Below are positions 68 to 8,564 of a stretch of DNA of 8,654 nucleotides, one piece after another. Position numbers and translations under genes: made by a program. Origin of the DNA: a bacterium (GTDB lineage: Bacteria; JAJVIF01; JAGGVT01); contig JAGGVT010000068.1 of assembly GCA_021157815.1 (NCBI GenBank), positions 1 through 8,654 on the forward strand. The letters run 5' to 3'. The notes below the pieces were generated by a model. That model was not told the origin of the DNA, searched no databases, and saw only the letters and a program-made list of their open reading frames with translations. The stretch's first letter is position 1. Each line of letters opens with the position of its first letter.

Positions 68-1438
68 CTATTCCTCGGAGTCATCCTCCGGCTCTCCAGT
101 TTCAGGAGAAGGGCCGTCAATTAGCAGTACAACTTTGAAATTGTTCAGAAGGAATGTCAGGTTGATCAATTCGTTGATTCTAAAAGCTGCTTCATTTGAA
201 AGTACAACATGCTTATTCATGCCATCCTCTTCAATAGCCCTATCAGCTTTTACTGTCAAGGGACAACCGGCGACTCTTGGTTCTCTACGCGCTTCCGGCA
301 TTGAATAGCAGTACTTAACCGATCCTTCGGCTTCAAGGTAACTCCTTTGCTCAATACTTAGTTCACTTGCTCCCCACTCTCCATAAAACAGCTTTTTGTT
401 CGGTTTAAGAATCTTCGGCTTTGCGCATATAGAAATGTCCAAGCCACGCGTATCAACGATAATACCAGTATATTGTATCTTTGGTGGTTTGTAGTCCTTA
501 TCGCACGATTTGACAAATATCACTCTGAATTCCCTGAAAATAGCGCTGTCTTTGCTTATGTTCCTGATCTTTTCAGCATCCGCATTGGATATAACAACGT
601 CCCTTATCAAAGTTAATTTGTCATCTTTTTCTACACCTTTTACACCTATTGCTTCAATAAAAAGAGGCTTACCGCCAAGGAGTTTGTGGTTTTCTGCTTC
701 AACTGTTGAATGGCAGTATTTTATTAGCCCATCATTCAACCAGATATCCATCATTTCATCAGTGAATTCACCCTCTTCGAGATTATTGCCATAAACCACA
801 TTGCCCCTTTCATCAAGGATGCTCGGATTCATAGCGTCCTCAAATCCATCAAAACAACCGCAATTGTATATAACTATAGAGGTGTACCCGCCTATATCAG
901 ATGGTTCCAAAGTGATATCATCAGCATCTTCATCATAAAGTTCCTGGATTTCCTTACTTTCTTCCTGAATATCAGCAATACTGCTGTCCCTCTTGTCGGG
1001 AATCACATTAACAGAAGGTTTCGAAATGAGAGGTTTAATTGGCATATCAAAACCATTTTTATTATCAGGCTTAGGCTTAGGGATATCGACAACCGTAATC
1101 TGCTTTGTCCTTATGACATCATCATTGTGTGGAGATGAAACAATCACTTTGATTTCCACCGTTGTGTCCTGGTCAATATCCTTTGCCATGAATTCAGTTG
1201 ATTCGGAATCAGAACAGACAAAAGTTCCAACAGTTTGGTCATCGACAATCCACAAGTAATCGATATCAGTGTCTCCTCTGGCGGATATTTTGCAGATGTT
1301 TTTTGAACCTTCATCCATTTTATCTGCCGCAAGGATTTCTTCACCGACAGTTATTTGTGTACTAACTACCTTGCCGCAGCCAGCCGCCAAAATGATAATC
1401 AGGCAAATAAGAGAGGATATTTTTTTCAGGTTTTGCAT
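68..1438 (-). CDS. Putative lipoprotein with Ig-like region and two tandem copies of a ~120-residue domain
   Basis: A 456-residue protein of unknown function, probably anchored in the envelope as a lipoprotein. Residues 1-20 form a signal peptide (KK, then a hydrophobic run) ending in the lipobox LAAGC, with Cys21 as the lipidation site. Residues about 27-118 look like a beta-sandwich (Ig/PKD-like), followed by a Pro/Lys/Glu-rich linker to about 180. Two copies of one domain follow, at about 185-310 and 323-440. Both copies show YT(S/G)I(V/I), a YG motif ~30 residues later, VKYC/IKYC, EA, PL-V/I-A, DVVIS or HVVLS, and a closing F-VV/VI strand. A third copy is in the gene at 4248-4772. The tail is acidic (PEDDSEE). 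The frame stays open to an ATG at 1498, but I chose 1438: it has AAGGTG six bases upstream, starts the signal peptide directly, and lies downstream of a sigma-54 promoter that covers the 1498 ATG. I recall similar domains in secreted proteins of Deltaproteobacteria, not verified. Gene reality is near certain; function is unknown. Confidence 0.9.
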   Translation of the reverse strand: MQNLKKISSLICLIIILAAGCGKVVSTQITVGEEILAADKMDEGSKNICKISARGDTDIDYLWIVDDQTVGTFVCSDSESTEFMAKDIDQDTTVEIKVIVSSPHNDDVIRTKQITVVDIPKPKPDNKNGFDMPIKPLISKPSVNVIPDKRDSSIADIQEESKEIQELYDEDADDITLEPSDIGGYTSIVIYNCGCFDGFEDAMNPSILDERGNVVYGNNLEEGEFTDEMMDIWLNDGLIKYCHSTVEAENHKLLGGKPLFIEAIGVKGVEKDDKLTLIRDVVISNADAEKIRNISKDSAIFREFRVIFVKSCDKDYKPPKIQYTGIIVDTRGLDISICAKPKILKPNKKLFYGEWGASELSIEQRSYLEAEGSVKYCYSMPEARREPRVAGCPLTVKADRAIEEDGMNKHVVLSNEAAFRINELINLTFLLNNFKVVLLIDGPSPETGEPEDDSEE

Positions 1439-1481: not shown

Positions 1482-1497
1482 AGCAAATCCTGTGCCA
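1482..1497 (-). promoter_or_regulatory. Sigma-54 (RpoN) promoter for the lipoprotein gene
   Basis: On the minus strand the sequence reads TGGCAC-AGGAT-TTGCT, matching the -24/-12 consensus TGGCAC-N5-TTGC, with exactly ten bases between the invariant GG and GC. The predicted start of transcription is near 1471, giving a ~33-nt leader that contains the AAGGTG ribosome site (1445-1450) six bases before the ATG. Sigma-54 promoters need an enhancer-binding activator; none is encoded in the window. Confidence 0.8.
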
Positions 1498-1573
1498 TAA
1501 CGTATTATTCAACGCATAAGCACGGTTATTATATATATTGGCGTTTCAATAAATTGTGTGGGTTATTTGCCCC

Positions 1574-1690
1574 GTAAAAAAAGGGGACAGTCCCAACAGG
1601 CTTCAAATCTGATGTTATCAATATACTATGCTGTAACCCCTTATTTATACTGTGTTTATTCACTTTGTTGGGACAGTCCCCTTTTTTTAC
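1574..1690. repeat. 117-bp inverted-repeat element with GGGGACAGTCCC ends (REP/MITE-like)
   Basis: Arms 1574-1598 and 1666-1690 are 25-base inverted repeats that match at 24 positions, separated by 67 bases. Each arm holds a run of seven A/T next to GGGGACAGTCCC, which is itself nearly palindromic; the only mismatch is the centre base of that palindrome. A second, outer inverted repeat (CAATAAATTGTGT at 1547-1559 against ACACGATTTATTG at 1709-1721, 12 of 13) may mark a larger unit. No direct target duplication is visible. The interior has no open frame of note. I recall GGGGACAGTCCC next to T-tracts as a dispersed repeat around REP-associated Y1 transposases, unverified here. Because each hairpin is followed by a T-tract, the element could also terminate transcription in either direction, including for the kinase gene ending at 1737. 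Confidence 0.75.
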
Positions 1691-1736
1691 TCAATCTAAA
1701 CTCAACCTACACGATTTATTGAAGAGCCTATATATT

Positions 1737-4073
1737 TTACAAAGATGTCATCATGATAAAAATATCCTGTTTGCCTTCTGATGTTCTCTTGTTCTTTTTT
1801 GAAAGGAAAGCGGAATCATTCTGAAAATCACCGACAATGAAAACGCTGTCCAAAGAGCAGGCGATGTCTAACGCTTCATCATCGGATGTGCCGCCCCAGA
1901 TTCTTACGTTGTCGAAATTACTTATTGAGTTGAATTTACTGATAAAAACATCCTTCTTTCCAGCTGATTCGAACCAGCAAGTCGCTTTTGCAGGATTAAA
2001 ATCGATTTTATCATCAAAAAATCCAGTGAAATATCCTGAGACATGAACATTGGAGGAGCTGTCAACAGCTATCGCTTGCCCGCTGTCGTCATTAAGGCCG
2101 CCCCAAGTGCAGACCCCGATAAAAACACCGTTCTTCATGAATCTGCTGAAATAAATATCAGCTTCACCGTTTGATTTTCTTGTTTCAGCTTTTACTCTGT
2201 CAGGATTAAAATCCACCTCATCATTGAACGAACCGGTGATAAAAATATTCGCATGCTTGTCTGAGGTTATCGCGTTGCCAAAGTCATCTCCTTTTCCTCC
2301 CCACGATAACACGTCCTGAAAGTTACAATCAGAATCAAACCGGGCGTAATATGCATCAAGAGCGCCATTGGACGTTCTTCTATCCGCGCGCTTGCCGGGA
2401 TTGAAATAAACCCGGTTGCTGAAATCACCCACGATAAGTACATTGGATTCAGCATCAACGACTATATCTTTTCCGCTGTCGTTTTCCTTTCCGCCAAACG
2501 TGTGGACCGCCAAAAACTTGCCGTTGTTATCAACTTTGATGAGAAAAACATCATCCATGCCGTTGGATTTTCGAATGACTTTATCGGAGCTGGGGTCAAA
2601 ATCCACCTCATTCCTGAAAGTGCCTGTTAGATAAATACTGGATACTCCGTCGGTCGCGATGCCAAATCCCGCATCGTTGCCACTACCGCCGAATGATCGA
2701 ACCCAATTCAATTCACCTTCCGGATTAAACTGGCACAGGAAAACATCACACATGCCCATTGATTTTTGCGCCAGTCCCGCCGATGAGGGATCGAAATTGA
2801 CATCATTTTCATAAATGCCTGTAACATAGATAAACCCCGCATTATCCACCGCGACATCGATCCCGAAGTCGCTCGAACTCCCACCCCAGCTTTTCGCCCA
2901 TGACCGTTTTCCGCTTTTTGTGTATTTTATCAGGAAAGCGTCATCCATTCCGTATGATTTGTGTTCATCAGTTCCAATAGTGTATTTTAAATTAACAGTG
3001 CCCTCATAACTGCCGGTTACGTAAATGTCTCCGTTTTTATCTTTGGCAACCGCGCGACATCTGTCACTCGATTCGCCGCCCCATGTTTTAACCCATTTTT
3101 CAGGAGCTATTTTGGGAATTGTAAAATCGATGTGAAGGCCACTGATAATCGCCGGGTAGGAGAAATACAAAGCTGCGATTGCTGTCACGATAAGCAGGAT
3201 TAAAAAGAATTTTATGGGAACATTATATTTTTTCAGCCTGATTCGATGTTTTACTTTGGTCAGTTTTTTAACAGGCTGGATAATTTGCTGAGGCGTTTCG
3301 GTTTGCTCAATGATAATTTTATGCACTTCAGCGGCCGTTGGACGGTATTCCGGGACAGTCTCGCACATTATATCTCGCAGTGTGAAAACCCATTCAGGGA
3401 CATTCTCTGGTGGTTCAGCTCCGAGCATCTCATCCAGTATCTTGCCCAATGCGTAAATATCAGTCGCGCGAGAGGCTTTTCCACCGGTTTTTTGAAGCTC
3501 AGGAGCGGAGTATTTGACTGTTCCCCGGAAGACATCTGATGATGTTATTGTGCTTTCAAATTCAGTTCTCGCAAGCCCGAAATCAAAGATCTTTGTATTG
3601 GCTGGCTTGTTTGCGGAGCCGGCATCGAGAAGGAACACGTTGGATGGTTTCAAATCACGGTGAAGAATGCTGTCAGGCCTGTCATGAAAATTCATCACGG
3701 TTTCAATCAGAGAGTGTAATATTCGAATTATCTCTTTCCAGTTGAACTTCCTGGTTTGCATGTGATGTGAAAGAGTTTCAGCATTAACCAGTTCCATCGC
3801 GTGGTAGTAGATTTGCCTGGATGAACTGTCGCATACGTTTGACTCAAAGATTTTAATTACACCGGGATCATCAACCCTTGAAAGGATTTTACCCTCACGC
3901 AGAAAAAGGTGCGTGAATTCAGGATCAAGTTTGACATGATAATCATGAATCACCTTCACAGCCACAGTATCACCGGTGAACGTGTCAAGGGCTTTGTAAA
4001 CAACCGCCTCACCGCCCTTGCCAATCTCACCGATTATCTTGTACTTATTGACTTTTTCGCCTGATTTAAGCAA
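1737..4073 (-). CDS. Membrane Ser/Thr protein kinase with extracytoplasmic seven-repeat SBBP beta-propeller
   Basis: A 778-residue (from the 4073 start) Hanks-type kinase that should phosphorylate Ser/Thr in the cytoplasm. The kinase domain spans about 10-258: glycine loop GEIGKGGEAVVY, VAVK with Lys40, Glu60 of helix C, HRDLKPSN (catalytic Asp140, Lys142, Asn145; an RD kinase), DFG 164-166 and APE 190-192, so all key residues are present. A basic juxtamembrane stretch (KKLTKVKHRIRLKK) precedes one membrane segment at about 287-309. The outside part (327-778) is seven copies of a ~65-residue unit, W-GG-xxxD-x-G-x-I-VD-x-IYVTG-F-xx-VDF-P, of the SBBP type, expected to fold as a seven-bladed propeller. 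This single-pass layout suggests a sensor kinase; the ligand is unknown. Start: the TTG at 4071-4073 has GGGAG five bases upstream and gives the family-typical beginning MLKSGEKVNKYKIIGEIG. A TTG at 4085 would add four residues but has no ribosome site. No ATG/GTG alternative lies nearby. It follows a terminator, so it is probably transcribed alone. Confidence 0.95.
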   Translation of the reverse strand: MLKSGEKVNKYKIIGEIGKGGEAVVYKALDTFTGDTVAVKVIHDYHVKLDPEFTHLFLREGKILSRVDDPGVIKIFESNVCDSSSRQIYYHAMELVNAETLSHHMQTRKFNWKEIIRILHSLIETVMNFHDRPDSILHRDLKPSNVFLLDAGSANKPANTKIFDFGLARTEFESTITSSDVFRGTVKYSAPELQKTGGKASRATDIYALGKILDEMLGAEPPENVPEWVFTLRDIMCETVPEYRPTAAEVHKIIIEQTETPQQIIQPVKKLTKVKHRIRLKKYNVPIKFFLILLIVTAIAALYFSYPAIISGLHIDFTIPKIAPEKWVKTWGGESSDRCRAVAKDKNGDIYVTGSYEGTVNLKYTIGTDEHKSYGMDDAFLIKYTKSGKRSWAKSWGGSSSDFGIDVAVDNAGFIYVTGIYENDVNFDPSSAGLAQKSMGMCDVFLCQFNPEGELNWVRSFGGSGNDAGFGIATDGVSSIYLTGTFRNEVDFDPSSDKVIRKSNGMDDVFLIKVDNNGKFLAVHTFGGKENDSGKDIVVDAESNVLIVGDFSNRVYFNPGKRADRRTSNGALDAYYARFDSDCNFQDVLSWGGKGDDFGNAITSDKHANIFITGSFNDEVDFNPDRVKAETRKSNGEADIYFSRFMKNGVFIGVCTWGGLNDDSGQAIAVDSSSNVHVSGYFTGFFDDKIDFNPAKATCWFESAGKKDVFISKFNSISNFDNVRIWGGTSDDEALDIACSLDSVFIVGDFQNDSAFLSKKNKRTSEGKQDIFIMMTSL
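1740..3095 (-). repeat. Seven tandem ~195-bp coding repeats (SBBP propeller blades)
   Basis: Within the kinase gene, the aromatic-GG anchors fall at residues 331, 396, 461, 526, 591, 657 and 726, a spacing of 65, 65, 65, 65, 66 and 69. The sixth unit carries a short insertion (FTGFFDDKIDFNP against FNDEVDFNP in the fifth). The last unit ends after its DIFIMM strand, so the KWVKTW strand at the N-terminal edge probably closes the ring, as in other propellers. Units have diverged at the protein level, so this is an old amplification rather than a fresh duplication. Confidence 0.85.
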
Positions 4074-4118
4074 ATCCTCTCCCAAATGTGAATCAGGACA
4101 GAGAAAATTGGATGCCTT

Positions 4119-4124
4119 ATTATA
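4119..4124 (-). promoter_or_regulatory. Possible -10 box for the kinase gene
   Basis: The minus strand reads TATAAT here, about 46 bases before the chosen TTG start and downstream of the terminator at 4167-4196. I see no good -35 hexamer at 16-18 bases (TAACCA at best), and no sigma-54 motif, so the promoter is only a candidate. It differs in class from the two sigma-54 promoters on either side. Confidence 0.35.
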
Positions 4125-4166
4125 ACTCTATAAGTTTGATTTGGTTAGTCATTTAAGACATTTTAC

Positions 4167-4196
4167 AAAGAAAAAGCCCGTCCTTGAAAGGACGGG
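4167..4196 (-). terminator. Rho-independent terminator of the small secreted-protein gene
   Basis: On the minus strand CCCGTCCT pairs with AGGACGGG across a four-base loop (stem 4177-4184 with 4189-4196), followed by CTTTTTCTTT. It lies about 50 bases after the stop codon at 4248 and ends that transcription unit before the kinase gene. Confidence 0.85.
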
Positions 4197-4247
4197 TGGG
4201 GTCTTGTTGCCTTATTTCATGAACTGCTTTAACCTGATATTAAGCGT

Positions 4248-4772
4248 TTAATCGCTTTTCTTTGATTTGCAAACCATGTGGCTGTGTTTGAATTTGGAAC
4301 TGACTCCGCCTGTTACGATTACCACCTTGAAAGAACTGAAGAGATCATTTTCAAGCGCTGCCAGCCTGACCTTGTCAGCAATGGCTTCACTAAGAACGAT
4401 ATCCCAATTGCCTGGTCCGGATAAGCTTTCAGCCTCGACAACAAGAGGATTTTCGCCTGCGCGTTCATTCGTCAGAGCTTCCTCAATTGTGAAACTGTAT
4501 GCGACAATGCCATAACCCAACAGGAAATTCAAATCGTCTTCATTAAGGCTTGTCCATTTGCCATACAGCACTTTCTCATCAGGATACATAATTTTTGGGA
4601 ACGCCGCGCGACTGGCTTCCAGCTTGCTGGCATTGATGATTATCGATGTGTAATTAAAATCGAATTCTGTCGCGCTGACCAGGTTTCTGCTGTGGTTGCC
4701 TGATGCAAACAGGGGTGTTGCGAACAGAAGAATCGTCAGCATGGTTGTCAGGATAGTAAGTGTGCGTTTCAT
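4248..4772 (-). CDS. Small secreted protein with one copy of the domain shared with the 68-1438 lipoprotein
   Basis: A 174-residue protein of unknown function. Residues 1 to about 24 form a Sec signal peptide (MKRT, hydrophobic core, LFATPLFAS); there is no lipobox Cys, so the mature protein should be soluble outside the inner membrane. One domain copy spans about 41-155: YTSIII at 41, YG at 70-71, IVAYSFT, EA, PLVVEA, DIVLS and FKVVIV, in the same order and nearly the same spacing as both copies in the 68-1438 protein. A basic tail (KSKKSD) ends it. ATG 4772 has AAGGAG six bases upstream and begins the signal peptide directly. An in-frame ATG at 4856 also has a ribosome site and would give a 202-residue form with 28 extra hydrophilic residues; I prefer 4772 because the longer form would bury the signal peptide behind a charged extension. 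The gene is transcribed alone, from a sigma-54 promoter to its own terminator. Confidence 0.88.
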   Translation of the reverse strand: MKRTLTILTTMLTILLFATPLFASGNHSRNLVSATEFDFNYTSIIINASKLEASRAAFPKIMYPDEKVLYGKWTSLNEDDLNFLLGYGIVAYSFTIEEALTNERAGENPLVVEAESLSGPGNWDIVLSEAIADKVRLAALENDLFSSFKVVIVTGGVSSKFKHSHMVCKSKKSD

Positions 4773-4853
4773 TTTCTTCTCCTTCTTGGATGTTATATTG
4801 CTAAAAAGTGAGAGTTTGCATCTCTCTGGTTTTGTATTGGTTCCTGATGTTTT

Positions 4854-4868
4854 CATTTCTTTCACCTT
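4854..4868 (-). promoter_or_regulatory. Second ribosome site and in-frame ATG upstream of the small secreted-protein gene
   Basis: AAGGTG at 4863-4868 lies six bases before an ATG at 4854-4856, in the same frame as the main start at 4772. The ribosome sequence and spacing are identical to those of the 68-1438 lipoprotein gene. It could start a longer protein, or be a translated leader that feeds ribosomes to the 4772 start. Confidence 0.5.
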
Positions 4869-4906
4869 CGTGATTTGAATTCTAATTAAACACGATTTAT
4901 TATAGG

Positions 4907-4922
4907 GCAACCATCGTGCCAA
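4907..4922 (-). promoter_or_regulatory. Sigma-54 (RpoN) promoter for the small secreted-protein gene
   Basis: The minus strand reads TTGGCAC-GATGG-TTGC, the -24/-12 consensus with exactly ten bases between GG and GC. Predicted transcription start is near 4895, giving a ~39-nt leader to the ATG at 4856 or ~123 nt to the ATG at 4772. A TATAAT overlaps just downstream (4899-4904) but has no matching -35 box, so sigma-54 is the better reading. Confidence 0.78.
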
Positions 4923-6393: not shown

Positions 6394-6446
6394 CTTCCAG
6401 AAGCGTGGTACCATGCGAAAGAATTGGTTGGCAATGTCAAGCACTC

Positions 6447-6692
6447 GTCATTCCCGCGAAAGGGGCTGTTGAAAAACCTCGTTTTGTCCCAGACCGTAGG
6501 GGCAACTCTCCGTGGTTGCCCTGTATTTATGCCAACATTTAGGGTAGGCACAGAGACCTACCCCCTACATTCAGCCCTTTTTCAACAGCCCCGAAAGCGG
6601 GAATCCATTTTTCTTTTACAGAAGAGTTGGCTTGCTCATTTTTAAATGGATTCCTGAGAACAGGCTAAAGAACCCGCTTTCGCGGGAATGAC
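6447..6692. repeat. Composite inverted pair of extragenic palindromes (CCCGCGAAAGCGGG type)
   Basis: The left unit starts GTCATTCCCGCGAAAG (6447-6462), is interrupted by a 129-bp insertion, and resumes CGAAAGCGGGAATCCATTT (from 6592). The right unit, in inverted orientation, is AAATGGATTCC (6644-6654), an 18-base interruption, then CCCGCTTTCGCGGGAATGAC (6673-6692). Flanks AGCAC and GTGCT extend the symmetry. CCCGCGAAAGCGGG palindromes of this kind are abundant extragenic repeats in many environmental bacteria. No gene is supported across the gap 6305-6895. Confidence 0.75.
6463..6591. mobile_element. 129-bp MITE-like element with 14-bp terminal inverted repeats and CGAAAG target duplication
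   Basis: Ends GGGCTGTTGAAAAA (6463-6476) and TTTTTCAACAGCCC (6578-6591) are perfect inverted repeats. CGAAAG flanks the element on both sides (6457-6462 and 6592-6597); removing the element and one CGAAAG restores a perfect CCCGCGAAAGCGGG palindrome. The interior has two more hairpins (GGGCAAC...GTTGCCC near 6499-6522, GGGTAGG...CCTACCC near 6542-6563) and no gene. It must depend on a transposase elsewhere; I cannot name the family. Confidence 0.75.
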
Positions 6693-6717
6693 GTGCTAAT
6701 TAACGAATAATGATTTC

Positions 6718-7882: not shown

Positions 7883-7991
7883 TTGGGGTGTGAGTTGATA
7901 TAAAATATTCTGCTTTGTTTGCCTATTTACTACAACGCAGAGGTAACAAGTATATTCAAATAGTTTCACAAAACAATTCGGAGGTTTGAAA

Positions 7992-8564
7992 ATGAATGCA
8001 AAAACTATGATTTTCTCAGTGTTTTTTCTAGTTGTTATTGTTATTTGGTGTGGATGCTCACAGAAAAGGGTACAAGAAAACAGCCTTGGAAATGACATCA
8101 AAGATACAACCATTGATAATGTTAAACAGAAGGTAAACAAAGAAAAATCGAGAGCTGAAACTCCTGATAAGTACGATTATCAGATAATCGGTAGTAAGAA
8201 CATAAGCATAAAAGCACTTGATAAGCCTCTTTCATCATATGCCCTTGGCGAAATTGAAAAGCTGCCTTTAAATATCAGGATGTAGTATTGGATACTTGTT
8301 CCTATTGAAATTACTGAAGATGAGCTAAAGACAACTTTAAAACAAGTGGTTCTTGATAAATCAGAAGAGAATCCTGACATAGACGAAATCGCGGTTATGG
8401 CAACACATCGTGAAGCAGATGTTGGTTCTGGTTATTCCGCAGGAATGGTTGAATGGTGCCCAAATGGAGATTGGGCTGGTGTGACATCAACGATTGCTTC
8501 AACCAATGATCGTTCATCATATGAATTTACGTATAAAGGGGACGGACACCTTTTGTATCGCTGA
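7992..8564 (+). pseudogene. Lipoprotein gene interrupted by one in-frame amber codon
   Basis: GGAGG (7980-7984) sits seven bases before ATG 7992. The product starts with a signal peptide ending in a lipobox WCGC (Cys22), then a charged linker. Translation meets TAG at 8283-8285 (codon 98), and the same frame continues for 92 more codons to TGA at 8562-8564. The part after the TAG reads YWILVPIEITEDELKTTL and later WCPNGDW and TNDRSSYEFTY, a conserved-looking domain that I recall from bacterial proteins of unknown function (possibly the DUF4875 group, unverified). The two halves fit with only the TAG position in question, so this is a fresh nonsense mutation, a sequencing error, or amber readthrough. 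No frameshift is needed. A re-start is possible at ATG 8346, but no good ribosome site is seen there. Nothing further is visible from 8565 to the end. Confidence 0.7.

Follow-up and report, generated by a model that had tools for sequence, protein, structure and literature searches.

The domain D2 is known from Tp0624 of Treponema pallidum (PDB 5JIR), and in the 2016 study of that structure it was never found without its partner D1, nor did the authors see an obvious pocket on it (PMC5104382). A second described system which bears on the locus presented here is the -24/-12 promoter of sigma-54 (RpoN), a factor that has been viewed as a controller of the bacterial exterior (PMC3162934). The stretch of DNA analysed (the window, 8,654 nucleotides) makes up an entire contig in the genome of an uncultured bacterium (3.2 Mb in 221 contigs) and carries two genes, termed A and B, that encode D2 and are each preceded by a predicted sigma-54 promoter. 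Its features, by position in the window, are:

68 to 1438, minus strand: gene A, a predicted lipoprotein whose N-terminal part is beta-rich and which has two Tp0624-D2 domains in tandem; start at AAGGTG-N6-ATG
116 to 475, minus strand: second D2 domain of gene A (profile, E 2.9e-32)
509 to 889, minus strand: first D2 domain of gene A (profile, E 1.0e-31)
1482 to 1497, minus strand: predicted sigma-54 promoter A, TGGCACAGGATTTGCT, exact consensus; 16.86 bits, rank 3 of 773 leaders; predicted start about 1471
1540 to 1728, no strand assigned: MITE-like inverted-repeat element of 189 bp, lying between promoter A and the kinase gene; its target duplication, AATATATA, is 8 bp long
4177 to 4196, minus strand: intrinsic terminator 3' of gene B, with an 8-pair stem and a T-run
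4248 to 4772, minus strand: gene B, a signal peptide and one stand-alone D2; AAGGAG-N6-ATG start
4311 to 4655, minus strand: D2 domain of gene B (profile, E 1.3e-32; structure match to 5jir)
4899 to 4904, minus strand: TATAAT just below promoter B, which could serve as the -10 of a rival sigma-70 promoter but lacks a good -35
4907 to 4922, minus strand: predicted sigma-54 promoter B, TTGGCACGATGGTTGC, exact consensus; 18.38 bits, rank 1 of 773 leaders; predicted start about 4895

The initial annotation had claimed two minus-strand motifs with ten bases between GG and GC, and its coordinates, strand and spacing are all exact: GG-N10-GC is present in both motifs, and a perfect TGGCAC-N5-TTGC, with zero mismatches, is found in the window at sites A and B only. 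Less remains of the AAGGTG which it had noted six bases before an ATG in both leaders. This does stand in both, but gene B has a better start downstream, the ATG at 4770-4772, which is marked by AAGGAG-N6-ATG and directly followed by a normal signal peptide; initiation at the in-frame ATG that AAGGTG marks, at 4854-4856, would yield a product 28 residues longer. On these features gene B most likely starts at 4772, and because its AAGGTG-marked ATG lies 28 codons above the better start, the shared detail is minor evidence of little weight. Gene A has a predicted 5' leader of 33 nt and a signal peptide with the lipobox LAAGC and Cys (MQNLKKISSLICLIIILAAGC, as read from the sequence); its product looks exported, as a predicted lipoprotein, and that of gene B looks exported by way of a Sec-type signal. 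A small lipoprotein-like gene is also present at 7986-8564, with one in-frame TAG at 8283-8285 and a frame that is open on either side. Elsewhere in the genome a large family of lipoproteins (L060, L047, L064 and others), most of them 700-1,100 residues long, gives 28 phmmer matches in a 1.01-Mb sample, and its members L060 and L047 have a sigma-54 site of at least 12 bits upstream.

Perfect matches to the motif could be functionless, as in any 3-Mb genome, and merely picked out by a reader who searches for them. The whole genome holds six, two in the window and four elsewhere, which equals the random expectation, and a reversed-motif control yields eight, so that there is no genome-wide excess of the real motif; moreover, two of the other four sites are intragenic and two lie, correctly oriented, above genes, in one case at a distance of 379 nt. 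Against chance, both window sites are in the leaders of the sole D2 genes. On a background of four perfect sites per 3.2 Mb outside the window, two perfect sites in two 250-nt leaders have P ~5e-8 before look-elsewhere correction, and two anywhere in the window P ~6e-5 before correction for other noticeable motifs. A sigma-54 weight matrix, built on approximate consensus frequencies rather than fitted to data, was run on 1.01 Mb of the genome taken as stretches, a minority of which had been picked for activators or perfect sites; control runs used this matrix with wrong spacings of 2, 3, 5 and 6. Among 773 genes with 250-nt leaders, where starts were shifted to the signal peptide if one exists, 13 leaders contain a canonical site of at least 13 bits, compared with 1, 0, 2 and 1 at spacings 2, 3, 5 and 6, respectively. 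Sites of this strength within 350 nt above called genes number 8 at the canonical spacing and 0 in the controls (1.01 Mb), a count which leaves out both window sites because greedy ORF calls ran over them. The window genes take ranks 1 and 3 of the 773 for the best sigma-54-type site, and the presence of both within the top 3 has P ~1e-5. The motif excess is confined to regions upstream of genes, and the possibility that the motif is as common inside genes as upstream of them, which had been named as grounds for rejection, did not hold. Intragenic sites of the same strength do occur in the 1.01-Mb scan, and a single site is therefore weaker evidence than the pair. Since sites at the canonical spacing are enriched above genes and those at the control spacings are not, the genome very probably uses canonical sigma-54-type promoters, of which the window pair is among the best, and chance is a very unlikely explanation of sites A and B.

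The machinery that such promoters require is encoded as well. The initial annotation had proposed a search for rpoN and enhancer-binding proteins and would have abandoned its claim in a genome without rpoN; both are present, RpoN in an open frame of 519 codons whose RpoN box, ARRTVAKYRE, is intact, and enhancer-binding proteins in the form of seven strong members. Among the five activators that were read, the GAFTGA loop is exact in two and a close variant in three. On contigs C66, C11 and C95, sites that adjoin genes for enhancer-binding proteins act as internal positive controls. Flagellar genes are among the usual clients of sigma-54, and flagellar rod genes are found in this genome. A site of at least 12 bits precedes 8 of 173 exported-protein genes compared with 6 of 600 others (p 0.005, and p 0.03 once the window genes are left out), and this enrichment agrees with the idea, already published, that sigma-54 controls the bacterial exterior (PMC3162934).

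Alternatively, sigma-70 promoters might drive both genes while the sigma-54 matches stay idle, in which case the TATAAT at 4899-4904 would be the -10 of gene B. This hexamer is perfect and lies just below site B; it was read from the sequence and is not among the sites that the promoter scan reported, in which no -35 at a spacing of 16-18 nt reaches the cut-off and no sigma-70 pair of at least 9/12 is found in the gene B leader above the likely start codon. The same scan finds no sigma-70-type pair of at least 9/12 above the start of gene A, and the pair near this gene at 1466-1437 runs into the coding start. An origin of the transcripts at sigma-70 promoters is consequently given a low probability, and sites A and B are judged likely to be two real sigma-54 promoters with predicted activity. 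Probably the same sigma factor drives both D2 genes. The promoters themselves are ordinary sigma-54 biology of a kind already known, because the theme of sigma-54 and exported proteins has been published (PMC3162934).

It is less clear that A and B answer to one activator. Beyond the core, no shared enhancer or leader homology of the two promoters rises above shuffled sequences. The MITE-like element starts 42 bp above promoter A and has the inverted ends GGCTCTTCAATAAATCGTGTGGGTT; the 1.01-Mb sample contains about 26 ends of such elements, which share the core AATAAATYGTGT. Activator sites usually lie above the promoter, where the element at 1540-1728 now sits, and an activator site there would therefore be displaced, so that promoter A may be impaired or may depend on a site farther away. 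Of the putative RpoN regulon that had been put forward, the sigma-54 promoters are supported and a single common activator is not, given the mobile element above A and the lack of a shared enhancer element above chance. A further reading is that both promoters are real and only B works now, either because the element has cut A off from its enhancer or because gene A was in the past part of an operon with the kinase gene. The element with its target duplication lies 42 bp above site A, and without it gene A would follow the stop codon of the kinase gene, on the same strand, after about 100 bp; on the other hand, an enhancer can act from far away, and site A has kept its perfect match. We regard this reading as unlikely, if less so than chance or sigma-70, and retain two working promoters as the preferred one.

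Two further resemblances in this region were discarded. The 12-mer AATAAATCGTGT below site B was considered as part of a mobile element, but its flanks differ from those of all element copies, and the start of the kinase gene (4069-4084) resembles site A over 16 bases, has no GGCA core and is taken as chance. A second repeat family with nested inverted repeats is located at 6446-6693, and GGGGCTGTTGAAAAA occurs 32 times, on both strands, in the 1.01-Mb sample. The kinase gene itself (1737-4085) combines a Ser/Thr protein kinase domain, a membrane segment and an SBBP beta-propeller.

In the proposed mechanism, RNA polymerase carrying the RpoN of this genome would bind the -24/-12 elements at 1482-1497 and 4907-4922 and remain in the closed state until the complex is opened by an AAA+ enhancer-binding protein that responds to some signal; transcription would then begin near 1471 and 4895. 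With sigma-54 promoters in front of them, genes A and B would therefore be made on demand. The gene B transcript would end at its own terminator, which is strong, and the kinase gene is therefore not obviously part of the transcript from promoter B. The D2 beta-sandwich would most likely serve the cell envelope as a scaffold or binding module, the copies of gene A being tethered to a membrane and that of gene B free. It is tentatively proposed, as a possibility of which we are doubtful, that the two genes form an RpoN-controlled D2 envelope module without D1, in which a tethered double-D2 lipoprotein and a free single-D2 protein are made upon the same signal; the two proteins would perhaps bind each other or one common envelope ligand. 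If true, D2 would be functional alone, against the published view of D1-D2 as a unit.

The initial annotation had described a shared domain in secreted proteins of unknown function. Both products do look exported, but the domain is not a nameless one: it is D2 of T. pallidum Tp0624, which has a known structure and a function that is still unknown. Residues 198-317 of Tp0624 resemble the window domain in both sequence and fold, which places the two in one family. Among solved structures, a model of the gene B product with a mean pLDDT of 79 has one match, Tp0624 D2 (Foldseek E 7.6e-6; VIA Z 14.0, 129 residues), and the remaining hits of the structure searches are noise (next VIA Z 2.2) with no bearing on other folds. 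At the sequence level the profile finds Tp0624 with E 6e-13, and a profile of the window copies alone with E 0.0027. As had been claimed, only two genes carry the domain, which a whole-genome search extends to the entire genome (three copies in genes A and B, nowhere else), and both have a perfect sigma-54 site. For D1 (LPP20-like), genes A and B give only noise (E ~0.4 vs 1e-42 for the control) with a profile of the homologs' N-terminal part, which is equated with Tp0624 D1 by position, the sequence comparison not having shown their identity.

D2 has no model in Pfam or NCBIfam. A first scan of the genome collection with the three window copies as query found no relative, and a ten-row D2 alignment was too diverse to serve as query; in a pattern search of 84,980 genomes (genome_contigs) 511 of 535 matches encode a relative, and those listed come from Nitrospirota, Desulfobacterota, Calditrichota, KSB1, LCP-89 and others. 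In these relatives D2 makes up the C-terminal half of periplasmic proteins of about 275 residues which have an LPP20-like N-terminal part. In an unrelated genome, a locus (L023, 1135-1857) has D2 after an SLH-type region and without D1. Sigma-54 control as a general trait of the D2 family is unsupported in 78 homologs, where 4 have a canonical site of at least 12 bits vs 2, 0, 1 and 1 at the wrong spacings; as homologs in other phyla rarely have the site, the link to sigma-54 is local to this lineage. Three genomes of the same class contain no D2 orthologs for footprinting.

The presence of D2 without its partner D1 is more unusual, and more interesting, than the promoters. An uncatalogued and widespread domain (511 matches) is now tied to a solved structure, and cases without the reportedly needed partner leave D2 alone open to study; in addition, the locus offers, for a bacterium whose group has been sparsely sampled, an assignment of promoters that can be tested. 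Compared with described sigma-54 promoters, sites A and B have the same core and GG-GC spacing, belong to a genome that encodes RpoN and activators, and lie above exported-protein genes; a search for a shared enhancer element above them found none beyond chance, and they are otherwise ordinary. The periplasmic proteins of about 275 residues have a C-terminal domain of the same family, but the window proteins are without the LPP20-like part, and the genes of the former seldom have a sigma-54 site, unlike genes A and B. Tp0624 is alike in the fold and sequence of D2 and differs in its D1 and OmpA-like D3, both missing from genes A and B, in which D2 stands single (B) or doubled (A).
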